30,990 nt of DNA from a virus. The notes under the pieces were generated by a model. It did no database searches, was not told where the DNA came from, and worked only from the letters and a program-made list of their open reading frames with translations. The position numbers and the translations under genes are program-made. Below are positions 2,686-28,362 of the stretch, one piece after another (positions within the stretch are counted from its first letter, which is position 1; the number at the start of each line of letters is the position of its first letter). The stretch lies in the IMG/VR virus record IMGVR_UViG_3300018432_000034, positions 1 to 30,990 of that record. One strand, written 5' to 3'.

Positions 2686-3378
2686 ATGGAGCCGTTCCGC
2701 GCAAAAGACATCGGACGCTTCCGCCAGAAGGTGGAGCTTATCCCGTTCTCCGACTGTCATTATTGGACGGGAGAGCTGAACGCGACCGGATACGGTATAT
2801 TCCGCGTGTACCGGGGCGACAAGCGCACGCCGTATCTGGCGCATCGGGTAGCGTTTGTGCTCGCAAACGGACCTGTACCGATCGATCGACCGCACGTTTT
2901 GCACTCCTGCGACAATCCAATGTGCGTGAATCCCGCTCATCTTCACGCCGGAACGCCTGGCGAAAACATGCGAGAGATGCAGTTGCGCCGCCGCCAGCGG
3001 TTGGGCGAGCGCCATCCGCGCAGCAAAATTTCGGACGCTGGAATGGCGACCGTGATCAGCCTGATTGATGAGGGGAGCGTCTCTGTTAGTGAAATTGCGG
3101 CCCAATTTGGCGTCGGCGTATCGCATATTTCTGCCATTCGGCACGGCAATGTGGGGCCAAACCATCCAGCGTTCGGCAGGCCCAAGCCGACGGGCAGGAG
3201 CGATCGCCGCCTCCCAGACGGCGAGGCCGCGCAAATCTATCGAAGGGCGCGGGGCGGCGAGAGAAACATTGACCTCGCAAACGAGTATGGCGTTGCCCCT
3301 AGCTTCATCGCGGACATCAAACGCGGCGTTACCTACGCAAGCGTTACTGGCCATAGGAGGCTCCAATCGGCCTCCTAG
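2686..3378 (+). CDS. HNH endonuclease with C-terminal HTH modules
   Basis: The 230-residue protein starts with an HNH-type nuclease region: CHYWTGELNATGYG (residues 22-35), AHRVAFVLANGPVP, and LHSCDNPMCVNPAHLHAGT (residues 72-90), the signature of freestanding phage HNH endonucleases. Two helix-turn-helix-like segments follow (about 133-152 and 206-222), suggesting site-specific DNA binding. It sits between structural genes like a homing endonuclease and has its own copy of the late motif upstream. Its end overlaps the start of the next gene. Target unknown. Confidence 0.85.
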   Translation: MEPFRAKDIGRFRQKVELIPFSDCHYWTGELNATGYGIFRVYRGDKRTPYLAHRVAFVLANGPVPIDRPHVLHSCDNPMCVNPAHLHAGTPGENMREMQLRRRQRLGERHPRSKISDAGMATVISLIDEGSVSVSEIAAQFGVGVSHISAIRHGNVGPNHPAFGRPKPTGRSDRRLPDGEAAQIYRRARGGERNIDLANEYGVAPSFIADIKRGVTYASVTGHRRLQSAS

Positions 3379-4001: not shown

Positions 4002-5299
4002 TGCAGCCGTTTGTTAGCGCCGATGCGAGCGCTTATCAGCCGTTGCTCAACTCAATGCCTGACCCGCTGAAGATCATTCAGCAGCAGATCGCCTTCAAGA
4101 CGGGCATCGAGTCACAACAGGTCGATAATCAGTTCAAGCAGGCGCAGATGGGCGCTCAGCAGAGCAAGGTTCAGCGTCAGCAGCAATTCGCCACCGCAAT
4201 GCAAGGTTATCTCGGCAATCCCACTGCCGAGGGGCTGGCATCGCTGATGGGTGCGTTCCCTGAGTTCTCGGAAGAGGCGAAGGTCGCATACCAAGCTCTC
4301 GACAAGAACAAGCGCACCTCTGACCTCACGCAGATGGGCGAGATCGCAACGCTCGTGCGGGGCGGCAACGTCGGCAAGGCGACCGAGCTGATGCGTGCCC
4401 GCGTCATGGCCGACAAAGAAGCTGGCGATAACGACCAGACCGACGATCTCATCCTTGAAGCGCTGGAGAGCGGCGATCCCGCCCGCGTGAAGCAGGCTCA
4501 GGGGCTGCTGGCTTACGGCATCGGTATTGCCGTTGGGCCGGAGCACGCGAAAAGCTTCCTCGGCGCTACCGACCTCAGCCAAGAGCCTGATCTAATCGCG
4601 GCGGGTCCGGGCGTAGACATCCTCGACAAGCGCAACATTGGCGCTGGGCCGGTTTATTCCTCACCCTACAAGCCCACGACCATTACTGATCCGGCGACGG
4701 GGCAAGTGTTTCAGATGGTGCCGAAGGGCGGCGGCGCGACGACGGCTGCACCTGCTGGCCCGCTGCCGGGTGGAACGCCCATGCCGCAGTCGGTGGGAGC
4801 AACCTTGGCTTCGTCCGGCTGGGCAGCTCCGGTGATTGCTGGCTTTCTGGGCAACTTCCACGTTGAAGGTGGACTAGGCGGCGCTAAGGGCGACGGCGGC
4901 ACGGCGCACGGCCTCGCGCAATGGCGCGGTGAGCGCGTGACCAATTTCCAGCGGGTCATTGGCAAGGCGCCGACGCAGGCTACCCCTGAAGAACAAGCGC
5001 GCTTTGTTATGTGGGAGATGCAGAACCCCCAAGCCGCAGGCATGACGGTAAAGCAGCGTGACGCTATTCTCGCCGCCAAGACGCCGGAGCAGGCCGCTAT
5101 CCTCATCGACAAGTTCTATGAGCGGTCGGACGGAAAGCACCGCAGTCGGCGTGTGGAAGCTGCAAGGGGCTATGCGAGCGGCAAGGCTCCGGTAACTGGC
5201 GGGCCCATCAAGGTCGCCAGCAAGCAGCAGTACGACGCGCTGAGTGCCGGTCAGCAGTATATTCATCCGAACGACGGTTCGTTGAGGGTGAAGGGCTGA
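4001..5299 (+). CDS. Ejection protein with C-terminal lysozyme-like domain
   Basis: A 432-residue protein in the P22 gp20 position. Residues 1-90 are Gln-rich and helical. Residues about 261-395 resemble phage tail-lysozyme domains (Phage_lysozyme2 type): IAGFLGNFHVEGG with a candidate catalytic Glu289, then GTAHGLAQWRGERVTNFQ. The likely job is local peptidoglycan opening during genome delivery. Pro/Gly/Thr-rich linker separates the two parts. Starts one base inside the previous stop and ends one base into the next ATG, so it is co-translated with both neighbours. The domain assignment is by motif only. Confidence 0.75.
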   Translation: MQPFVSADASAYQPLLNSMPDPLKIIQQQIAFKTGIESQQVDNQFKQAQMGAQQSKVQRQQQFATAMQGYLGNPTAEGLASLMGAFPEFSEEAKVAYQALDKNKRTSDLTQMGEIATLVRGGNVGKATELMRARVMADKEAGDNDQTDDLILEALESGDPARVKQAQGLLAYGIGIAVGPEHAKSFLGATDLSQEPDLIAAGPGVDILDKRNIGAGPVYSSPYKPTTITDPATGQVFQMVPKGGGATTAAPAGPLPGGTPMPQSVGATLASSGWAAPVIAGFLGNFHVEGGLGGAKGDGGTAHGLAQWRGERVTNFQRVIGKAPTQATPEEQARFVMWEMQNPQAAGMTVKQRDAILAAKTPEQAAILIDKFYERSDGKHRSRRVEAARGYASGKAPVTGGPIKVASKQQYDALSAGQQYIHPNDGSLRVKG

Positions 5300-8124
5300 T
5301 GGCGCAGCAGTGGGGAATGAACGATCAGGTCGTCACGCCTGTTGGCGCGCCGGGGCCAGACCCCATGGCGGACTACGATCTCATTCCGGTTACTCGGGCC
5401 GATCCTCGGCGGGGTGCTGAGCTGGTGCAAACTTATGCTCAGACGGGGCAAACGGAAGCTCAGACCGAGCGCATTCAAACCGAGACCGAGCAAACCCGTC
5501 AGCAGATGCAGATGGGCAATATTCCGCCTGGCTGGCGTCTCAAGGAAGACGGTTCGGGCATTGAGCCGATCGCTGGCTGGAAAGAAGACCCTAATGCCCC
5601 TGCTGCGATCCGTATGGATGCCAAGGACCGCAGCGCGCTAACGAAGCAAGAAAGCAAGCTAAGGTTTGCCCAAGGGAGGATTGCTGAACTTCAGAAGCTC
5701 TACAAAGACGATTTGAAGGGCTTCAGGCTCCGCGAGATACCCGAGTCTATCGGCCTACAGGGCATCATTCCTGACGCGTGGCGCGGGAAGGCCCAGCGCT
5801 TCGATGCCGTCGGCGGCACCTTCATGGGTGAGCTGAAGGAAGCGATGGGGATGACGGGCGGAGAGGCCAATAACGCAGTGGAAATCACGCTGCGCTTCGG
5901 CCCCTACATCCCGAAGGCATCGGATTCTGATGAGACGATCGAATACAAGATCAAGATGCTCAACGATCTTCTGGAAAACGAGATCACGGGCGTCTCAAAG
6001 CGCTTGGGCACTGAAGGCGACATAGGCTTCAACACGCCCGATCAAGACCCGCGTGGTAATCCTCTGACGCCGGAACAGCAGGCTGCTTATGATGCCTTCC
6101 TGAAGGCCCGCCCGGATGCCACTGCGGCTGATCTAGATGCCTTCGCGAAGAGCATGGATTTGGGCGGGATGCCCAACGCTCAGGAAGTGCTTGATGCGTA
6201 CAAGGAGACGGGCCAGTTCGTGCCTGGCTCGGAAGCGCAGATGGCGCCTGTGGATATATCAGACGTGCGCGGCGAAGGTGGTGCTCTGGAGACGCTGGAC
6301 GCGGGCGTTCGCGCGGCAGCCAACACCGTTACCGCTGGAGCTGCCGATCGGATACAGGCTGCGGGCAGCACCCTATTTGGGGGCGGCACCTATGACGAGA
6401 ACCTTGCTCGTCAGTTCGAAATCACGAACTACGATTGGCAAAATCACGCTATCGCCAGCACCGTTGGCACCGTTGCCGGAGCCCTAGCCATCCCTACGGG
6501 CGTTCGGAACGCTGCTTCGGTTGCTGCTAAGCAGGTGATGCGTTCGGGTGGGACGAGGGAGGCCGCAGTTACTGCCGCCCGCAATGCCGCTGCACTCCGG
6601 CTCGGCAAAGAGGGTGGTGCATACGGAGTGGTCCAAGGCGGCATGACCAGTCAGGGAGACTTGGCAGACCGCGCGGCTCAAGCGGCTGTATCTGGTCTAG
6701 TAGGCGCCGCCACAGGCGCGGTTCTTCCGTTCGCAGGGGCGGGGGCGGCAAAGGGTGCGCGGGCCGTTAAGTCGGTATTTGAGGGAGCTCCCGAGCTCGC
6801 CAATCGCGTCGTCTACACAGCGATCAAGGCTGACGGAAACACGCCCCGCGACGTAGGCCGCATGGCCGGCGCTGCTAACGAAAACGGCGTGCCGTTCATG
6901 GTGGCGGATAGCGGAGAGAATGCCCGTGGATTGATGTCGGCCAGCGCACGCGCGCCGGGTCCGGGCCGCACGAAAGCCATCGGCGCCTTGGACGAACGCC
7001 AAGGGGCTCTGGGTGATCGCGTCGTAAAGCATATTGAGCGCGACTTGGGACCGATCGCCAACCCCCACAAGATCGCGGACGACCTGATGTCAGAAGCCGC
7101 TTCTAACGCGGGGCCGCTCTATGCATCTGCTTACGCCAAGCCAGGTGCCGATGCTTTCGGAACGAAGATTGCGCCGCTGCTGGGCCGCCCCTCCATGCAA
7201 CGTGCGCTTGCCAACGCTCAGCGCCTAGTAACGGAAGAGGGTGGAGACCCTACGGCGCTTGGCTTTGACTTCAATGAGGCCGGCGATGTGATCCTCAAGC
7301 GTGTCCCATCGTGGCAGACGCTCGATTACGTCAAGCGCGGCATGGATGACGTTGTTGAGGGCTACCGCGACAAGACGACCGGCAAGCTGGTCCTCGACAC
7401 CGAAGGCCGGGCTATCAACAACACCCTTCGCCAGTTCCTCGGCGCGTTCGACAAGGCAAATCCCGACTATGCCGCCGCTCGCTCAGCCTACGGTGGCCCT
7501 GTTCGCGGCATTGAGGCGATGAACCAGGGCCGCAAGGCTCTCTCTATGACCGCAGACGACCTTGAGGCGCGGATGCGTGATATGACGCCGTTCGACCGCG
7601 AGATGTTCGCGTTGGGCACTCGGCGCGCGATGGCAGAGCTTGTGGAAAGCAAAGGCGACTCTGCCAATATCGTCCATGCTCTTGCTGGCACCGGTAAGAA
7701 GCGAGCTATGATGGCGCGCCTGTTCGGAGGCCGGAAGGAGTTCACCCGCTTCGTCAACACGCTTGGAACCGAAGAAGAGGCATTCCAGACGTTCAAACGG
7801 GCTCGAACCGGCTCCCCGACCGCCCCCAACGCGAAGGACGATACGGAGCTGGCGGTGGCGACTGGCATAAGCGATCTTGCGACCACGGGCGTTCCAGTCG
7901 TGACGGCCCTCCGGATGGCGGCAAGAGCAAAATCAGCGTCTGCCCGGAAAGACGCTGAAGACGTGATCGCTGCGATGCTCGGTGAGACCGATCCCGATCA
8001 GGTGCAGGCGCTAATCCGTCGTTTCCGTCAGGAAGAGACCAAGCTCGCCAAGGCCAAGAAGCGCAACCCTGCCGCCTCAACGGTCAGCAAGAGCGCGGCG
8101 GCCCTTACCCCTTCGACCGAGTAG
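5299..8124 (+). CDS. Large ejection protein, gp16-like position
   Basis: At 941 residues this is the longest gene in the window. The N-terminus (residues 1-75) carries Gln/Thr-rich helical sequence (TGQTEAQTERIQTETEQTRQ). The middle (about 330-500) has several Ala/Gly-rich amphipathic or membrane-active segments such as AAVSGLVGAATGAVLPFAGA. This composition and position match podoviral internal proteins that are ejected to form a channel through the envelope. No catalytic motif was recognised. It ends convergently with the reverse gene at 8105. Confidence 0.7.
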   Translation: MAQQWGMNDQVVTPVGAPGPDPMADYDLIPVTRADPRRGAELVQTYAQTGQTEAQTERIQTETEQTRQQMQMGNIPPGWRLKEDGSGIEPIAGWKEDPNAPAAIRMDAKDRSALTKQESKLRFAQGRIAELQKLYKDDLKGFRLREIPESIGLQGIIPDAWRGKAQRFDAVGGTFMGELKEAMGMTGGEANNAVEITLRFGPYIPKASDSDETIEYKIKMLNDLLENEITGVSKRLGTEGDIGFNTPDQDPRGNPLTPEQQAAYDAFLKARPDATAADLDAFAKSMDLGGMPNAQEVLDAYKETGQFVPGSEAQMAPVDISDVRGEGGALETLDAGVRAAANTVTAGAADRIQAAGSTLFGGGTYDENLARQFEITNYDWQNHAIASTVGTVAGALAIPTGVRNAASVAAKQVMRSGGTREAAVTAARNAAALRLGKEGGAYGVVQGGMTSQGDLADRAAQAAVSGLVGAATGAVLPFAGAGAAKGARAVKSVFEGAPELANRVVYTAIKADGNTPRDVGRMAGAANENGVPFMVADSGENARGLMSASARAPGPGRTKAIGALDERQGALGDRVVKHIERDLGPIANPHKIADDLMSEAASNAGPLYASAYAKPGADAFGTKIAPLLGRPSMQRALANAQRLVTEEGGDPTALGFDFNEAGDVILKRVPSWQTLDYVKRGMDDVVEGYRDKTTGKLVLDTEGRAINNTLRQFLGAFDKANPDYAAARSAYGGPVRGIEAMNQGRKALSMTADDLEARMRDMTPFDREMFALGTRRAMAELVESKGDSANIVHALAGTGKKRAMMARLFGGRKEFTRFVNTLGTEEEAFQTFKRARTGSPTAPNAKDDTELAVATGISDLATTGVPVVTALRMAARAKSASARKDAEDVIAAMLGETDPDQVQALIRRFRQEETKLAKAKKRNPAASTVSKSAAALTPSTE

Positions 8125-15030: not shown

Positions 15031-15391
15031 TCGATCCCCCATCATCTACTGTGGTGCCGTTGAGGGCGGCGCGGGCGACATTGCGGGCAGCAATCGCCTC
15101 GTCCTTGGCTTGTTGGCAGACGCACAACCCATCCGCACCCATGTCGTCGAGCAATTGGTCTAGCGCTTCCTCGGCCACCTCTAGCGCACTACGGAGGGAT
15201 TGGAGTTCGTTGGCTACGTCATCGAGACGTTCGCGCGTCTCTCTGTCCACATGGCGCATTCCCGTCATCCGAAGCCACGTCACCAGATCGCCCGATGCTT
15301 CCGGCTTGGCGCGACCGTTCGGCACCCATTCGGCACCGAGCGTTTTAGCCATGCGCTGCGTAGCCTCTGAGGGCGTCTTATCCTCTGTCAT
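15017..15391 (-). CDS. Hypothetical protein, helical with Cys pair
   Basis: ATG 15391 gives a 124-residue product beginning MTEDKTPSEATQRMAKTLGA. A central helical region (RERLDDVANELQSLRSALEV) likely forms a coiled coil and is followed by GADGLCVCQQAKDEAIAARN, where CxC may bind metal. Start overlaps the end of the GIY-YIG gene by 14 nt. Function unknown. Confidence 0.65.
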   Translation of the reverse strand: MTEDKTPSEATQRMAKTLGAEWVPNGRAKPEASGDLVTWLRMTGMRHVDRETRERLDDVANELQSLRSALEVAEEALDQLLDDMGADGLCVCQQAKDEAIAARNVARAALNGTTVDDGGSNERD

Positions 15392-16073
15392 CGGTTGGTT
15401 CTCCGTTGGTGAGGGTGTTGAGACGGGCGATCTCGGCACGCACGGGCTGGCTGAGCTTGAACCACTCGCCCGCTCGCCTCCAGGCGCGGAACTCCATGTG
15501 GTAATCGTGCTCAAGCGAGCGCCCGCCGTGCCTATAAGCGAGGACTTCAATCGCTTCTGGGCAGCCGATCTGGAGCGCCTTGATGCGTTTCGCGAGATTG
15601 GTCGTGAAGCCGATCTTCACATAGTTGGGCATTCCACTGATAAAGTAGACCAGCTCGCCAGTCGGTAACGGTGGCGGCGGCGGGCTAGGCAGCCCCTTGA
15701 GCGCCACCCAATATTCGATCAGCCTTGCCGGGATTGCCTCTGGGCGGATGCGCCAAAGCTTGCCGAGCCGGAAGCCAGGCATTTCTCCCGTTGAAAGCGC
15801 ATTGTGGACAGCGCCCCGCGATACCTCAAATATCTCGCAAACGTGTCGGGGTGACAGAGCATAGCCGCGCTCAACCGCTGCCCTCCACTTCGAGCGGAAT
15901 GGATCAGGCACGGTGCCCATATCTGGGTTGGACAATGTTCCAGGGTCGCTATCGGAAAAAGAACGGACGCCAGCGACACCGTTGGTCAAATTGTCCGTTG
16001 AATCCATTCGACAAGTGCTAGACCCCTGCCCCTGCCAAGTCAATCCTCTTACAGAGGGGAAATTGGCTGTCAT
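15378..16073 (-). CDS. Excisionase-type HTH fused to GIY-YIG (T5orf172/MUG113) nuclease domain
   Basis: 231 residues if started at ATG 16073 (overlaps the integrase stop as ATGA), or 209 from ATG 16007. Residues about 70-118 form a MerR/excisionase-like helix-turn-helix (LSPRHVCEIFEVSRGAVHNA, then RLGKLWRIRPEAI). A Pro-run linker (LPSPPPPPLPTG) joins a C-terminal GIY-YIG-family domain: LVYFISGMPNYVKIGFTTNL, Arg-Ile-Lys, and EHDYHMEFRAWRRAGEWFKL with the catalytic-type Glu. Directly after the integrase, it may act as recombination directionality factor, as nuclease, or both. Domain calls are by motif. Confidence 0.75.
   Translation of the reverse strand: MTANFPSVRGLTWQGQGSSTCRMDSTDNLTNGVAGVRSFSDSDPGTLSNPDMGTVPDPFRSKWRAAVERGYALSPRHVCEIFEVSRGAVHNALSTGEMPGFRLGKLWRIRPEAIPARLIEYWVALKGLPSPPPPPLPTGELVYFISGMPNYVKIGFTTNLAKRIKALQIGCPEAIEVLAYRHGGRSLEHDYHMEFRAWRRAGEWFKLSQPVRAEIARLNTLTNGEPTDDRG
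15926..15940 (-). repeat. Integrase-region direct repeat, copy 1
   Basis: The 15-mer GGTTGGACAATGTTC (plus strand) is repeated exactly at 16093-16107, 167 nt away. It lies within the HTH/GIY-YIG gene. It may be an arm-type recombinase or excisionase binding site. Confidence 0.45.
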
Positions 16074-17158
16074 TTGTCCAACCTTTCGGAGTGGTTGGAC
16101 AATGTTCGCGCTTCGATCACGCGCTGGATAGCCGCGTCGGCAAGCTGTTTTTGGTTCGCTCCAGCAGCGTAAGTCGCCACTTCAGCATCATTTGCCCACT
16201 GCCCTAGCGCCTTGAGCTGCTGCTGAGTCGCGCCAGCATCGGCGGCGATGGTCACAAGCGCCTTCCGCAGCCCGTGGAGCGAACACTGCGGCAAGCCAGC
16301 CTCATCGCAGCGCTCCCGGAACCAGTTGCCCAGCCCGGCATCCGTGAACGGCTTGCCCTGCGAGGTGACTAGAAACGTCTCGCTGCCAGTTGGAGCCGCT
16401 TCAATCGCAGCGCCCAAGTCGGGCGCCAAGATCACGTCAACGTCCTTTGCGGTTTTCCCCGCTACGGCAGTCACGCGTCCGTTCTTGATGTTCGCTGGCC
16501 CTAGCTTGGCAACGTCGCCCCGCCGCAACCCCGTCCAGAAAGCAATCTCCAAGGCCAACCTAGCCTTCGTGCCGATCGGGTGGCGCTTCTGGAACTGATT
16601 GATCTCTTCGGCTGTCCAGATGTGATAGCCTTTGCCCTTGGCTGTGACTGGCGAATCCGCCTCGCGCGCCGGGTTGTAGTCTATCCAGCGCAGCTTCCGT
16701 TGAGCGAAGTCGAACAGGCGCGTTAGCTGTTCGTGCAGCCGCTCGGCCGCCGCCGGCCCTCCCCGCTTCCTACCATCCACGACCGTAGGCTTGGCGCGGC
16801 GCAGCAGCATCCGTTCGATGTGATAGTCCGTGAAGTCTGACACCGGGATGTGAGCCGCCTCGCTGCGGAACTCTTCCAGGGTGGAGCGGACAATGGCCTT
16901 CCACTTGTCGCTGCCGCGCTCGAACTTGGCACTGGCGTAGAAGCGGACGAACAGATCCCCGACGCTCTTGGGTATCACTCGCAGCTTGCGCGGCATGATG
17001 CCCTGGTCGCCACCCTCGACCATTTTCTTGAACTCTGGCGAGCCCAGACGGTGCGGGATGTAGAAGTCGATGCCCTTGCGGCGATAGCGGAAGCGCTCGG
17101 TTCCGTGCCGATCGACAACCGCGGTGACGCCCGTGGGCAAGTTACGCTTCCGGGCCAT
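16070..17158 (-). CDS. int: Tyrosine recombinase (phage integrase)
   Basis: A 362-residue integrase. The N-terminal half holds the arm/core-binding region; the catalytic domain spans about 175-345. Catalytic residues visible: Arg212 (FWTGLRRGD), His295 and Arg298 (LHGLRKA), Trp321 in the His/Trp position (ALGQWAND), and nucleophile Tyr330 (EVATYAAG). It would integrate the circular genome at a host attachment site. Starts inside the end of the upstream gene and is followed by an excisionase-like gene, so expression is from the leftward operon. Attachment core not identified. Confidence 0.92.
   Translation of the reverse strand: MARKRNLPTGVTAVVDRHGTERFRYRRKGIDFYIPHRLGSPEFKKMVEGGDQGIMPRKLRVIPKSVGDLFVRFYASAKFERGSDKWKAIVRSTLEEFRSEAAHIPVSDFTDYHIERMLLRRAKPTVVDGRKRGGPAAAERLHEQLTRLFDFAQRKLRWIDYNPAREADSPVTAKGKGYHIWTAEEINQFQKRHPIGTKARLALEIAFWTGLRRGDVAKLGPANIKNGRVTAVAGKTAKDVDVILAPDLGAAIEAAPTGSETFLVTSQGKPFTDAGLGNWFRERCDEAGLPQCSLHGLRKALVTIAADAGATQQQLKALGQWANDAEVATYAAGANQKQLADAAIQRVIEARTLSNHSERLDK
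16074..16107. repeat. Inverted and direct repeat at the integrase 3' end
   Basis: TTGTCCAACC (16074-16083) and GGTTGGACAA (16093-16102) are perfect 10-bp inverted arms 9 nt apart, just inside the integrase stop codon. The right arm is part of the second copy of the 15-mer found at 15926. Candidate arm-type sites of the attachment region, or an mRNA hairpin at the end of int. Confidence 0.45.
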
Positions 17159-17324: not shown

Positions 17325-17546
17325 CTACTCCTCCACCGGCATATGTTTACGGGCTGCTTTGAGACCGGCGATGATTTCAAGGTCGTACTCGCCGAGCTTC
17401 TCTCCGGGCCTTGGCTCTACGCCGCGTGCTTTCCAGAACGCATCGTATGCTGGGCGCCAAGCTTCCTCATCGCTAGGCTCAGCAGGCGGTGTCCACCCTT
17501 GGTTGATAAGGGATTGGCGGAGGTGGGGGTCGATACTGTCGGTCAT
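17325..17546 (-). CDS. Hypothetical protein (73 residues)
   Basis: Starts ATGACC, sharing 4 nt with the stop of the cassette gene upstream (GCCCAATGACC), and ends one base before the next GTG. Contains INQGWTPPAEPSDEEAWRPA and DAFWKARGVEPRP. Soluble, Pro- and Glu-rich. No family recognised. The junction with the cassette gene is the same as at 21734-21737. Confidence 0.6.
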   Translation of the reverse strand: MTDSIDPHLRQSLINQGWTPPAEPSDEEAWRPAYDAFWKARGVEPRPGEKLGEYDLEIIAGLKAARKHMPVEE

Positions 17547-17929
17547 TGGGCAATCCCCTTACGGGGCCGCGCTGTCGCCCTACGGGTCGAGCCAGTCTTT
17601 GCTGTCTCGCCGCTTCGCGCTTCCATCGCTATCGCGGCAGCCGCTAAGAACATATGCCCGCCCTTGGTCAGCTTGAAATAGCGAGAATCCGTCAGTGAAG
17701 TCCCGCAGTCTCGACAGGGTTTCTTGATCTCGTGTTCCATGATGAAGCCTGACAAGACTAGCTCCCAGTGAAGGTTATCCATCGGCGGCTTGCCGTTCGC
17801 GGGGAAGTTCGCGAGAGCCGAAGCCAATTCCTCAAGCGAGAACGCGCTAGGGATCGAAGGCTTTGCTGGAGACGCGTCAGCGGCCCCACCCGTAGGGCGA
17901 GAGCCCGACCGCGCAGCGGGAGCGCCCAT
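17543..17929 (-). CDS. Inverted-repeat cassette gene A (CxxC protein)
   Basis: A 128-residue frame with unrelated core between two shared flanks. Residues 2-28 (GAADASPAKPSIPSA) are encoded by the right repeat arm and the last about 30 residues (AIAMEARSGETAKTGSTRRA) by the left arm. The core (about 29-95) holds LHWELVLSGFIMEHEI and CRDCGTSLTDSRYFKLTKGG, a single CxxC motif. Start ATG overlaps a mini-ORF stop (TGATGG) and the stop overlaps the next ATG. Function unknown; the arrangement matches gene B at 21734. Confidence 0.65.
   Translation of the reverse strand: MGAPAARSGSRPTGGAADASPAKPSIPSAFSLEELASALANFPANGKPPMDNLHWELVLSGFIMEHEIKKPCRDCGTSLTDSRYFKLTKGGHMFLAAAAIAMEARSGETAKTGSTRRATARPRKGIAQ
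17548..17630 (-). repeat. Cassette repeat, left arm of A
   Basis: Read on the minus strand this arm ends at GCCC, immediately before the AATGACC stop/start junction. Its 42-nt core (17548-17589) holds two mini-hairpins, CCC-GTA-GGG and CCCC-GTAA-GGGG, separated by CGACAGCGCG. It is an inverted copy of 17849-17927 (about 32 of 42 core bases identical by hand count) and a direct copy of 21739-21818. Confidence 0.7.
17849..17927 (+). repeat. Cassette repeat, right arm of A
   Basis: Read on the plus strand: AGGGATCGAAGG, then GAGACG, a CCC-GTA-GGG hairpin, CGAGAGCCCG, a CCGC-GCA-GCGG hairpin and GCGCCC. The GCGCCC end abuts the CAT (reverse ATG) of gene A. Inverted relative to 17548-17630. Confidence 0.7.
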
Positions 17930-19464: not shown

Positions 19465-19745
19465 TAGCCGACACGCCACTCCATCGACGGATCGTTGCTG
19501 ATGAATGGAACGTCGTCATCCAAATCGGTTGATGCGGGCTGACGCTGCGTTGGCGTTCCCTGTGAACCATCGCGCTCACGCGGCTCGAACAGGTTGGCGA
19601 CGCAGCGCCCCTCCGCATCCGGCAGCGGCAAAGCGTCGAAGATTAGCTGGATGCCCTTGTCGCCCTCGAACGCCGTGCCGATGCGCGTCCAGAAGGTCTT
19701 ATCGCGCCCCTTGCGCGGGGCCATGATGTCGTATCGCTTCGCCAT
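19464..19745 (-). CDS. Hypothetical protein (93 residues)
   Basis: Starts MAKRYDIMAPRKGRDKTFWT and continues RIGTAFEGDKGIQLIFDALP, LFEPRERD. Proteins with this start are common in phages of alphaproteobacteria. The C-terminal third is low-complexity and acidic (DLDDDVPFISND), like single-strand binding protein tails. Between the annealing protein and HNH gene with TAATG overlaps. Function unknown; a DNA-metabolism role is inferred from place. Confidence 0.65.
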   Translation of the reverse strand: MAKRYDIMAPRKGRDKTFWTRIGTAFEGDKGIQLIFDALPLPDAEGRCVANLFEPRERDGSQGTPTQRQPASTDLDDDVPFISNDPSMEWRVG

Positions 19746-20614
19746 TACTTCGCTCCGATGCTTTCAAGTTGTTCGAGGTCGCGCTTCTTCTGGTCGATGC
19801 GGATTTCCAGCGGCACGAACTCAGCTGGTACCGAAGGCCCGCCCCGCCACCAGTCGGGCATGTCCCGCTCGAGCTGGGTGCAGAACTCGTTGAAGTCCGA
19901 CGTTGCTTGCCAGGCCAGAAGCTCGCCAAGATCGCCCATGCTCTCGAGCGTGCGGACGAACTCCTTGGCAGCCGTCTTGAGCTGCGTGGCGGATGTGTAA
20001 GGCCCATCGAGCGGGACGCGCTTGGCGGGTGGCGTCTCACCCGTCGCCGGATTGTCCGGCTTGGGCTGGAACTGCTCGCGGACTTCAGCGACATACTTGC
20101 TGTCGTCGAAGAGGCCCATGTGGACATCAGCGCCGACGCCGACGAACTTGAAGGCATTGCCCAGCGCATCCGTGAAGGCCTTCTTGAAAGCCTCGTCGTC
20201 GTTCTCCCAGCGCTCCGGTCGATTGTATTGCTGGTTTGCCTTGATGTGGGTGATGACCTTATCGCCGCCGACGCCGTGAACATCGTGCCGATCGCCGTCC
20301 TCGACATACCAGGCCGTGATGGTGCAGAAGACCAGCAGCTCCTTGTTGTCGCCGTTCACAAGCTGGAACTCGGGCTTGTCGAAGCCCCAACCAGTTCCAC
20401 AGGGGCCGAAGCGTTCCGTTAACCGCTTGTTGACCCACATCGGCTTGAGCGCAGTCCCGGTGAACCCGCCACCGCGCTTGAACGATTTCGTGTGGGCCGG
20501 ATCGGTCGTGCCGAGCTCGTTCCAGATGCGAAGGTTGGTTGAGCGCTGCTCGTCCATCTTCCTCAGCACGTCCTCGACCGTCTCAGCGGCTTCGGGTTTC
20601 TTGTGCACATTCAC
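19745..20614 (-). CDS. Rad52/ERF-like single-strand annealing protein
   Basis: GTG 20614 is chosen because GGAAGGAG lies 8 nt upstream; about 289 residues. Motifs like the Rad52-fold annealing proteins of phages: RFGPCGTGWGFDKPEFQLVN, TITAWYVEDGD and EAFKKAFTDALGNAFKFVGV, the last resembling the conserved helix with AxTDALKRA in Rad52/Sak proteins. It would anneal complementary strands during phage recombination and genome circularization. Exact subfamily is uncertain; in other phages such genes are annotated ERF or Sak. Confidence 0.7.
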   Translation of the reverse strand: MNVHKKPEAAETVEDVLRKMDEQRSTNLRIWNELGTTDPAHTKSFKRGGGFTGTALKPMWVNKRLTERFGPCGTGWGFDKPEFQLVNGDNKELLVFCTITAWYVEDGDRHDVHGVGGDKVITHIKANQQYNRPERWENDDEAFKKAFTDALGNAFKFVGVGADVHMGLFDDSKYVAEVREQFQPKPDNPATGETPPAKRVPLDGPYTSATQLKTAAKEFVRTLESMGDLGELLAWQATSDFNEFCTQLERDMPDWWRGGPSVPAEFVPLEIRIDQKKRDLEQLESIGAK

Positions 20615-20772
20615 TTGCTTTGCTCCTTCCACTGAGCAGCGGTTGCATCCAGTTGTTCGTCTTCCTCGCGCCATTTGCGGATCTGTGCTCCAGCTTCGTA
20701 GAGCCAGGCATGGCGGCGATCCTGCTCGGCGAGCATCTGATCGATTGCGCGAAGAATGGGGTTCTCAGCCAC
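20611..20772 (-). CDS. Small helical hypothetical protein (53 residues)
   Basis: GTG 20772 after GGGAAGAGCC. The product ILRAIDQMLAEQDRRHAWLY and IRKWREEDEQLDATAAQWKE is a single helical, charged protein. Overlaps the upstream gene by 8 nt and the annealing gene start by 4 nt. Function unknown. Confidence 0.6.
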   Translation of the reverse strand: MAENPILRAIDQMLAEQDRRHAWLYEAGAQIRKWREEDEQLDATAAQWKEQSK

Positions 20773-21387: not shown

Positions 21388-21737
21388 GCTGCCTCTCCAT
21401 ATTTTCGCAGAGGATCGCCTTCACGAATGGTCAGTTGCTCGGCAGCCGCCAGCAGTCGCTCGATCAGCTTGTCAGCATCCTCTCGCGTGGCGTCGATCAC
21501 CGCTTGGCGATCCATGCGGCTTGCCGACCACTCTTCGAGCAGGCGGTCACATTCGACGTTGTGCAGCTTCCGCAGCTTGCGTGCGGTATCGCCCTGGTAG
21601 CGGTATTCACGCTGTCCGAACCCGTATGCGCTCGGCACGGTGGTGAACTCTGGCTCGCTTGCCAGTATCTCGGCAATGAGACGCTGCGCCTCGCGTGTTT
21701 GCGCCCATGTGGGGAGTTGGGTGGGCGGGTTGGTCAT
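21384..21737 (-). CDS. Hypothetical helical protein (117 residues)
   Basis: Starts at the ATGACC junction that also ends cassette gene B (GCCCAATGACC), as gene 17325-17546 does for cassette A. Contains FTTVPSAYGFGQREYRYQGD and a long charged helical region (DREDADKL-type, residues 80-105). Function unknown. Confidence 0.6.
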   Translation of the reverse strand: MTNPPTQLPTWAQTREAQRLIAEILASEPEFTTVPSAYGFGQREYRYQGDTARKLRKLHNVECDRLLEEWSASRMDRQAVIDATREDADKLIERLLAAAEQLTIREGDPLRKYGEAA

Positions 21738-22147
21738 TGGGCGTCCCCAGCTTCGCTGGTCGCGCTCTCGCCTTCGGCTGAGCCGCTACGTGTCTCATCG
21801 CTCCGCGCTTCGATCGCTGACGCGGCAGCCTCAAGCATCTCCTCGAGCTGATCGTACTCGCTGACGTGTTGGCGGGGCCACGGCGAGAACTCGCAAGTGA
21901 ACCCATGAAAGCCATCCACTGCCATTACGGCAGCGCTGCGGGCATCGCCGGCCGAGTCCTCCCAAGCCCGCCGGAGTCGCGCTCCAGTGAACTGTTTGTT
22001 GTCAACCAGCACGGCAATGTATGGCTGGAACTCAGCAGCAATACTGTCGAACTCAGCGCAAGGGATTGAAGCCTTTGGTGAAGACGCCTTGGCGGCTTCA
22101 TCGCGAAGCGACGAAAGCCCGATCCCGCAGGGATGCGCCCCGCTCAC
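21734..22147 (-). CDS. Inverted-repeat cassette gene B
   Basis: GTG 22147 overlaps the upstream stop (GTGA), so the first codons (VSGAHPCGIGLSSLRDEAAK) come from the right repeat arm; the last about 30 residues (AIEARSDETRSGSAEGESAT) come from the left arm. The 75-residue core differs entirely from gene A and includes FTGARLRRAWEDSAGDARSA and GFHGFTCEFSPWP. Length 137 residues. Same start-arm-core-arm-stop plan as 17543-17929. Function of the core unknown. Confidence 0.65.
   Translation of the reverse strand: MSGAHPCGIGLSSLRDEAAKASSPKASIPCAEFDSIAAEFQPYIAVLVDNKQFTGARLRRAWEDSAGDARSAAVMAVDGFHGFTCEFSPWPRQHVSEYDQLEEMLEAAASAIEARSDETRSGSAEGESATSEAGDAQ
21739..21818 (-). repeat. Cassette repeat, left arm of B
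   Basis: Minus-strand reading: AGCGATCGAAGC, GAGACA, hairpin GCC-GAA-GGC, GAGAGCGCG, hairpin CCAGC-GAA-GCTGG, then ACGCCC right before the stop/start junction. The 42-nt core is 21739-21780. Direct copy of 17548-17630, inverted copy of 22061-22140. Confidence 0.7.
22061..22140 (+). repeat. Cassette repeat, right arm of B
   Basis: Plus-strand reading: AGGGATTGAAGCCTTTGG, GAAGACG, hairpin TCGC-GAA-GCGA, CGAAAGCCCG, hairpin ATCCC-GCA-GGGAT, GCGCCC. Its core is 22099-22140. It begins four codons inside gene B's start and mirrors 17849-17927. Confidence 0.7.
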
Positions 22148-26609: not shown

Positions 26610-27527
26610 ATGTCCCGCTCCACCATCAGCACGTTCGAGCTGTTCCAGATGTTCCCCGATGCGGAGAGCGCCCGTGCCTATTTCGAGGCGCGGCGCTGGC
26701 CGGACGGGGCTATCTGTCCAGCTTGCAACGAAGCCGAGCGCATCGGCACTCGCAAGGGCGGCTTCTATCGCTGCAATGCTTGTCTGACTGACTTCACCGT
26801 CCGCACCGGCACCGTTTTTGAGCGTTCGAAAATCCCGCTGCACAAGTGGATTTACGCCATGTATCTGCTGGTCACGTCGCGGAAGGGCATCAGCAGCCTT
26901 CAACTCGCCAAGCAGATCGGCGTCACGCAAAAGTCGTCCTGGTTCATGCTCCAACGGCTGCGCGAGGCTTGCGGCAACGATCCGACCACGCTGGCAGGGA
27001 TTGTCGAGTGCGACGAAACCTATGTCGGCGGCAAGGAAGCGAACCGGCACGAGTATAAGCGCAAGAGCTTGGGGCGCGGCTCCATCGGCAAAACACCTGT
27101 CCTCGCTGCCCGTGAGCGCGGCGGTCGCGTCCGCGCCAAGGTTGTCGCTGAAACCACGTCGCGCAGCGTCTACAGCTTTATTCGCGGCGCAGTTGACGTT
27201 GGCGCGGAACTGCACACCGACGAGGCCGCTGTCTATCGCCCGTTGAACGGCCTCTACTATCGTCAGCGGAGCATCAATCACGGCATCGGCGAGTATGTTC
27301 GCGACGGCGTGACCACGAACGGCGTGGAGAGCGTCTTCGCCGTCCTCAAGCGTGGTATTGTGGGGACGTTCCACCATGTCAGCCCGAAGCATCTGAACCG
27401 CTACGTTGGCGAGTTTGCGTTCCGCCTCAATGATGGGGACGTGAGCCGCCACACGATGCAGCGCCTCGCCAGCCTGTTCAGTGCGGCAATTGGCCAGCGC
27501 CTCACCTATAAGGAGTTGATCGCATGA
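26610..27527 (+). CDS. IS1595-family (ISXO2-like) transposase
   Basis: A 305-residue transposase. N-terminal zinc ribbon CPAC (36-39) and CNAC (55-58), then the ISXO2-type DDE/N domain: Asp135 in VECDETYVGG, Asp204 in LHTDEAAVYR and Asn237/Glu240 in TTNGVESVFAVLKRG, with HHVSPKHLNRYVGEFAFRLN near the end. All catalytic positions are present and the frame is intact, so it may be active. Confidence 0.92.
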   Translation: MSRSTISTFELFQMFPDAESARAYFEARRWPDGAICPACNEAERIGTRKGGFYRCNACLTDFTVRTGTVFERSKIPLHKWIYAMYLLVTSRKGISSLQLAKQIGVTQKSSWFMLQRLREACGNDPTTLAGIVECDETYVGGKEANRHEYKRKSLGRGSIGKTPVLAARERGGRVRAKVVAETTSRSVYSFIRGAVDVGAELHTDEAAVYRPLNGLYYRQRSINHGIGEYVRDGVTTNGVESVFAVLKRGIVGTFHHVSPKHLNRYVGEFAFRLNDGDVSRHTMQRLASLFSAAIGQRLTYKELIA

Positions 27528-28188: not shown

Positions 28189-28362
28189 ATGAGTGCAGAA
28201 CTTCTCCGCGACCTTGCCCGCGCCAAAGCCGTGTTTCAGCTTCGCGCGATTGAGGCGGTCATTCGCGGGCCAGCGTTAGCGGCAGCGGCCTTTGGCGGAG
28301 ACGTGAAACAGGCTCCGGGCGAAGCCCCGCAGAGCGGCGGCGACAAGCCGCAACGCCCATGA
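28189..28362 (+). CDS. Small protein ending in a cassette-type repeat arm (57 residues)
   Basis: ATG overlaps the methyltransferase stop (ATGA). The first 30 residues (MSAELLRDLARAKAVFQLRA) form a helix. The C-terminal part (AFGGDVKQAPGEAPQSGGDK) is encoded by a repeat like the cassette arms of 17543 and 21734. Its stop falls at CGCCCATGA, like the other arm-stop junctions. Function unknown. Confidence 0.55.
   Translation: MSAELLRDLARAKAVFQLRAIEAVIRGPALAAAAFGGDVKQAPGEAPQSGGDKPQRP
28288..28358 (+). repeat. Likely fifth cassette repeat arm, unpaired
   Basis: GCCTTTGGCGGAGACG matches GCCTTTGGTGAAGACG of the arm at 22061 in 14 of 16 bases. It continues with hairpin GGGC-GAA-GCCC, CGCAGAGCGGCG, a GGC/GCC pair around GACAA, and ends CGCCC at the stop. 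More diverged than the other four arms, and no inverted partner is seen at the start of this gene. Confidence 0.5.

Follow-up and report, generated by a model that had tools for sequence, protein, structure and literature searches.

Probable exchangeable in-frame gene cassettes in phages, bounded by outward-facing copies of a structured element that recurs in conjugative plasmids

How can two genes of one phage share the sequences at both of their ends and differ in everything between? The question is raised by IMG/VR record IMGVR_UViG_3300018432_000034 (30,990 nt; hereafter the window, meaning the whole stretch of DNA that was analysed), which encodes a terminase and an integrase and is therefore a temperate tailed phage. 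An unbiased repeat search ranked first, as the longest inverted repeat of the whole window, a 47-nt pair matching at 77% (17547-17593 and 17882-17928) within gene A, a minus-strand ORF of 128 aa (17543-17929) without family match. Gene A carries at each end a copy of one discrete element, designated E, of ~81-98 nt (~88): a head arm lying on the template strand (17842-17928, plus strand), which ends at the ATG (start 17929), and a tail arm lying on the coding strand (17547-17637, minus), with core A, the unique part of the gene, between them (17638-17841, minus). Gene B (21734-22147, minus; an ORF of 137 aa with a GTG start) has the same kind of head arm (22054-22141, plus) and tail arm (21738-21825, minus) around core B (21826-22053, minus). 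The original prediction of an inverted pair of ~80-nt arms at gene A, and of the same arms around an unrelated core in gene B, is borne out, the size estimate being about right (exact lengths of 87-91 nt). Both tail arms end in GCCCAATGA; these left arms also both finish with GCCCAATGACC, in which the stop codon TGA and the ATG that follows overlap. On the plus strand the right arms finish with GCGCCC. That the arms abut start codons and stop/start junctions holds for the ATG of gene A and for both left arms, but not for the GTG of gene B at 22147, which lies 6 nt beyond its arm.

Ordinary paralogy, which would have A and B align along their whole length, had been set against this reading. Alignment of the two proteins is confined to the C-terminal arm (the last 47 aa, 43%) and the cores do not align; core A has no blastp similarity to core B or to other cores. 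The two genes are therefore not ordinary paralogues. Rfam, Pfam, PHROGs and PDB supplied no family for A, B or most of the cores. Scored with a covariance model of E, termed R1, the head and tail arms gave 55.4 and 67.4 bits for gene A and 66.2 and 61.0 bits for gene B, with rough E-values of 1e-8 to 6e-11 in a search of 650 kb, although all four are among the 34 training sequences of R1 and match by construction. A possible fifth copy, degenerate and weak (28271-28359, plus; 19.5 bits, E 0.1-0.3), lies at the 3' end of the ORF at 28189-28362, with the TGA stop directly after it.

What the arms have in common was defined from an alignment of 34 sequences in one orientation, comprising the four arms of the window, two arms of Microcystis phage Mvi-Yong1342-1 and 28 IMG/VR copies found by pattern scan. 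E follows the pattern GCGN.AGSGATNGAAG...GCGANAGCSCG...NCGCCCA, with the consensus GCGN n A GSG A TN GAA G [P3] [P4] [P5] GA N'A G CSC GR [P6] N'CGC CCA; it is GC-rich, its termini are GCGN...NCGCCCA, and its GCG and CGCC columns are invariant. The fold is a branched structure of six helices and 25 pairs: GCGN and N'CGC form the closing helix, GSGATN and N'AGCSC pair over a long range, and most hairpins carry a C-GNA-G triloop as their cap. In the 34-sequence alignment 95.1% of cells are paired, double-change cells number 172 against 56±6 after shuffling, covariation scores 0.518, compared with 0.156, and pairing drops to 34-45% when the structure is slid, counts that lean somewhat towards structure since the alignment was padded by hand before counting. 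The varying pair of the closing helix is CG in 18 sequences, TA in 14 and AT in 2; one pair of helix P2 is GC in 19 and CG in 15, and another is CG in 20, GC in 10 and TA in 3. This covariation leads to the rejection of pure homologous recombination without structural selection. A shorter, 69-nt variant of E, seen at two loci (L015 and L019; for example, L015:997-1065), dispenses with helix P4 and keeps P1, P2 and P6.

Is the fold one of DNA or of RNA? On the E strand, 220 of 397 hairpin triloops have the sequence GNA, most of them closed by C, as against 8% in shuffled sequence, and the complementary TNC occurs 14 times; C-GNA-G loops form extraordinarily stable DNA minihairpins, as the work of Yoshizawa et al. 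(1997) is represented in PMC6479982. GNA triloops can occur in RNA too. Folding with DNA parameters favoured the E strand over its complement in 100 of 105 copies, compared with 70 of 105 under RNA parameters, a strand preference that in part may be the loop bias over again. The first alignment held G.T and A.C appositions in equally small numbers (8 and 7), and the larger, model-fitted alignment held 40 and 19, a weak excess of G.T that would be expected also from an RNA role. The triloops, the scarcity of G.T pairs and the DNA-parameter folding favour DNA over RNA, short of proof, and the E strand likely folds as single-stranded DNA.

In 64 loci R1 returned 80 matches (E≤0.5); of the loci that stemmed from chance or partial pattern matches, most held no E by the model. 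Copies were present in 26 of 41 whole viral records, with up to 14 in one phage (G017) and about 100 in the regions taken around them in the 26 phage records, a census biased by the exact patterns that seeded recovery. A scan of genome contigs with the strict pattern yielded a single chance match (L009), not an E by the model, and 60 Acidobacteriota genomes yielded no match, a weak control of specificity with few candidates scored. One E-bearing phage, PP496355.1 (L004), is named for Microcystis and carries proteins like those of proteobacterial phages; a proteobacterium present in the culture may be the actual host.

Arms scattered singly and at random had been named as an outcome that would speak against cassettes. 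Solitary arms do occur, yet pairing is systematic: neighbouring copies less than 1.6 kb apart formed 32 outward inverted pairs (minus then plus), 14 inward pairs and 9 in the same direction. A single ORF spans both arms in 19 of the 32 outward pairs, by mechanical ORF calls chosen without regard to arm type. As the original prediction anticipated, such inverted pairs are found around unrelated cores in many phages; among 21 spanned ORFs the cores are mutually unrelated by BLASTP, save for one paralogous pair within G017. The cores examined gave no informative Pfam match, and one ORF, L041, has a match in a phage primase family. Head arms read like ..SIPNA or ..SIPSA and tails like ASAIEARS.ET..ESA..GDAQ. 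The arms are nevertheless read in two codon phases, and therefore selection at the protein level is rejected and the thing conserved is the nucleic-acid fold, not the reading frame. The further proposal that the arms preserve start, stop and frame fares less well: many units have their start codon outside the head arm, at a distance of 5-45 nt or more, the arms are read in either of two phases, and E is found outside genes as well.

The two arms of a pair are not equivalent. In 26 of the 32 outward pairs they differ at one covarying base pair of P2 (permutation 0/2000), whereas none of the other 24 base pairs of E shows such a difference between arms; in the remaining six pairs both arms are of the same type. 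When pairs are oriented by the spanning ORF, head arms are of the G type (GGG/CCC) in 19 of 19 cases and tail arms of the C type (GCG/CGC) in 17 of 19. The window conforms, with AGGG..AGCCC in the head arm and AGCG..AGCGC in the tail arm of gene A, and a G-type head and C-type tail in gene B. Exchanging the types in silico left the ORF open in 38 of 38 arms. As a swap of type never breaks the ORF and the arms are read in two phases, neither stop codons nor a fixed peptide explains the rule of head G and tail C.

Evidence that cores change places comes from close relatives. Phages G005, G008 and G010 are 95-99% identical over long structural stretches, but in the early region short conserved pieces make up a mosaic. 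At the same locus in G008 and G005, arms 82% and 92% identical enclose different cores of 479 and 792 nt. Around a second G008 unit (4636-5468) the conserved boundaries end at 4627 and resume at 5473, and the interval is filled in G005 and G010 by other, E-free sequence of ~111 and ~381 nt. In G017, two units have cores 83% identical with arms only 69-75% alike, the change falling at the arm edge, while two others have head arms 92% identical with unrelated cores and upstream flanks. Cores and arms are accordingly separable units, in line with the original prediction. The cassette-like swap of cores between fixed arms that had been proposed thus gains from the unrelated cores, the G005/G008 replacement and the G017 combinations, and core exchange between arms is well supported. 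Neither excision nor an empty site exact to the base was seen, and in G005, G008 and G010 the replacements differ in content and do not amount to a clean presence or absence. The same three relatives also share a second conserved in-frame linker (..LSARPVAQT.., ..PSQPTEPAQP..), unrelated to E, which brackets different cores (G008:4560-5540, G005:39380-39640, G010:36300-36810). In G005 an HNH-endonuclease-like ORF lies in-frame within an E head arm (G005:37540-38200, L116) that is intact in G008 (6484-6552, L111).

Between units A and B of the window lies a gene for a RAD52-like single-strand annealing protein (19745-20674, minus), identified by tblastn to phage RAD52-like annealing proteins and labelled exonuclease by PHROGs; it is a candidate exchange enzyme. 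Its relatives had too few common neighbours to reveal empty sites. A tyrosine integrase gene (16070-17158, minus; PF00589, 5e-13) lies just downstream of unit A. A GIY-YIG (T5orf172/MUG113) gene (15378-16073, minus) and an HNH endonuclease-like gene (2686-3378, plus) are possible homing drivers of exchange, and the phage record also contains a transposase gene of the IS1595 family (ISXO2-like; 26610-27527, plus).

E is not confined to phages. Its consensus matches 983 PLSDB plasmids, mostly IncN and other MOBF conjugative plasmids, and in E. coli genomes 490 of 494 places with E are on plasmids. The plasmid copies are intergenic, near ssb, ardA/ardR, DUF932 and methylase genes and antisense to them; within the leading region they occupy a single strand, the one opposite to the early genes, and all confident copies (ten loci) have the same orientation. 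Because stbABC adjoins oriT in the established gene order, the E-bearing strand would be the transferred strand. Plasmid pNDM-ECS01 has two copies, 99% identical 85-mers, located 150-260 nt upstream of the 300-nt CUP repeat. IncN copies thus lie within or beside the region controlled by the CUP regulon, but CUP is described as promoter and ArdK-site repeats (PMC5371602, PMC6289460), and E stands apart from it at ~150-260 nt upstream. Two plasmid loci (L106:8390-9130 and L107:8400-9100) have a GC-rich stretch of ~550 nt between E and a leading-region gene, with long imperfect inverted repeats such as GTGACACCGTGTACCTATCGCC..GGCGATAGGTACGCGGTGTCAC. The plasmid copies may have been described earlier, outside the open-access literature.

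These data have led us to propose that A and B are probably exchangeable in-frame gene cassettes, each bounded by two outward-facing ~88-nt copies of E that fold as DNA. A unit would have the layout TGGGCG-(reverse E, G type)-core ORF-(E, C type)-CGCCCA, and the fold would likely act at the DNA level, on the single-stranded E strand. Recombination or annealing at the conserved arms would transfer the cores, plausibly aided by phage annealing proteins such as the one encoded between A and B, and the fold may serve a single-strand DNA role common to phages and to the leading regions of conjugative plasmids. Lambdoid phages exchange genes between conserved short boundaries by phage recombination; the boundary here differs in that a single element with a covarying structure recurs around many unrelated genes and is read in-frame. 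Integron cassettes, which are known from phages too (PMC9892861), resemble the units in that small ORFs are exchanged beside a folded single-strand DNA site. However, attC has RYYYAAC/GTTRRRY boxes, one site per cassette in direct order and IntI, in contrast to two inverted copies within the ORF; the 34 aligned copies of E show no conserved GTT or AAC from these boxes. A tyrosine integrase domain, whether or not of the IntI kind, is present in 21 of 26 E phages.

It is rather unlikely that the unit is instead a non-autonomous transposon-like element, with a G-type E as left end and a C-type E as right end, both recognised in their folded DNA form by a transposase or recombinase of host or phage that acts in trans, as in REPINs or MITEs with cargo. 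REP/REPIN elements with their RAYT (PMC3116915) likewise consist of short foldable repeats in inverted pairs, have a left and a right end and probably fold as single-stranded DNA, and the 32 outward pairs, the two distinct ends with fixed ORF orientation, the C-GNA-G hairpins on one strand and the copying of E in G017 as a discrete piece with unrelated sequence on either side would all suit such an element. REPs, however, are extragenic and chromosomal and measure 20-40 nt, whereas E is ~88 nt, branched and borne by phages and plasmids, and its arms enclose an ORF and lie in-frame inside it at both ends in 19 pairs. The Y1/RAYT transposase (PF01797) was found in 0 of 30 E-bearing records, against control matches in 5 of 14 genomes, and no obvious target duplication was seen at unit A or B. 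The tyrosine integrases of the E phages are expected of temperate phages anyway, and the swapped units of G005 and G008 stay at the same locus.

An initiation site on single-stranded DNA, be it a promoter or priming site of the Frpo/ssi kind or a hairpin promoter of the N4 type, whose head copy on the template strand would start synthesis into the gene, is unlikely; Frpo, at ~300 nt, is the longer sequence, with -35/-10 boxes in its stem. In plasmids, ssb/ard-type early operons have E upstream of them on the opposite strand, as described for Frpo (PMC11541004); the Frpo/ssi promoters (PMC11541004, PMC9849209) can fold as single-stranded DNA, adjoin ssb in the leading region and occupy the strand opposite to the early genes, a placement shared by E in plasmids only and not in phages. 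Promoters of the N4 vRNAP depend on SSB and on a template-strand loop that is closed by C-G and has a 5'G and a 3'A (PMC4496689); the triloops of E are of this type. Against initiation, E is GC-rich, no -35/-10 boxes are visible in its aligned copies, and the window between 17000 and 23100, which includes A and B, has no sigma-70-like -35/-10 pair; tail copies would drive antisense synthesis, and initiation alone does not explain the core swaps.

Independent insertion of a palindromic repeat, like the Rickettsia palindromic elements, tolerated at gene ends and without cassette function, is improbable. It would account for the solitary copies, and E is free of in-frame stops in several frames, although its sense strand is so no more often than shuffled sequence; set against it are the systematic outward pairing, the asymmetry of head and tail types and the swapping of cores between conserved arms. 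A role as RNA, with hairpins at the ends of the ORF insulating or coupling translation or protecting the message, agrees with the arms at start and stop/start junctions and with the conserved fold, yet is very improbable given that the head copy is antisense in the message while the conserved loops and the better folding belong to the E strand, that G.T pairs are few, that plasmid copies are intergenic and antisense, and that the 12 kb around the arms contain no Rfam match at E≤1.

The reading of A and B as in-frame cassettes with folded-DNA boundaries can be extended, tentatively and with more doubt than belief, to an undescribed mobile-gene system: non-autonomous in-frame cassettes whose non-identical ends (G head, C tail) would be recognised as folded single-stranded DNA, common to double-stranded DNA phages and to the region in which plasmids enter as single-stranded DNA, with accessory genes moving between both and becoming fused in-frame on arrival. 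For phages, the cassettes would provide a concrete and testable mechanism for the mosaicism of early regions, namely a structured in-frame boundary at which unrelated accessory genes are swapped. E would also serve as a signature of sequence and structure for finding such cassettes, whose cargo is almost wholly uncharacterised and may include anti-defence genes. The element further links phages to conjugative plasmids, at the very region of the plasmid that enters the recipient first, and raises the question of what reads the folded single-stranded DNA in both. Its recurrence in phages and in the first-transferred region of plasmids suggests that mobile DNA exchanges genes by a route not described before.
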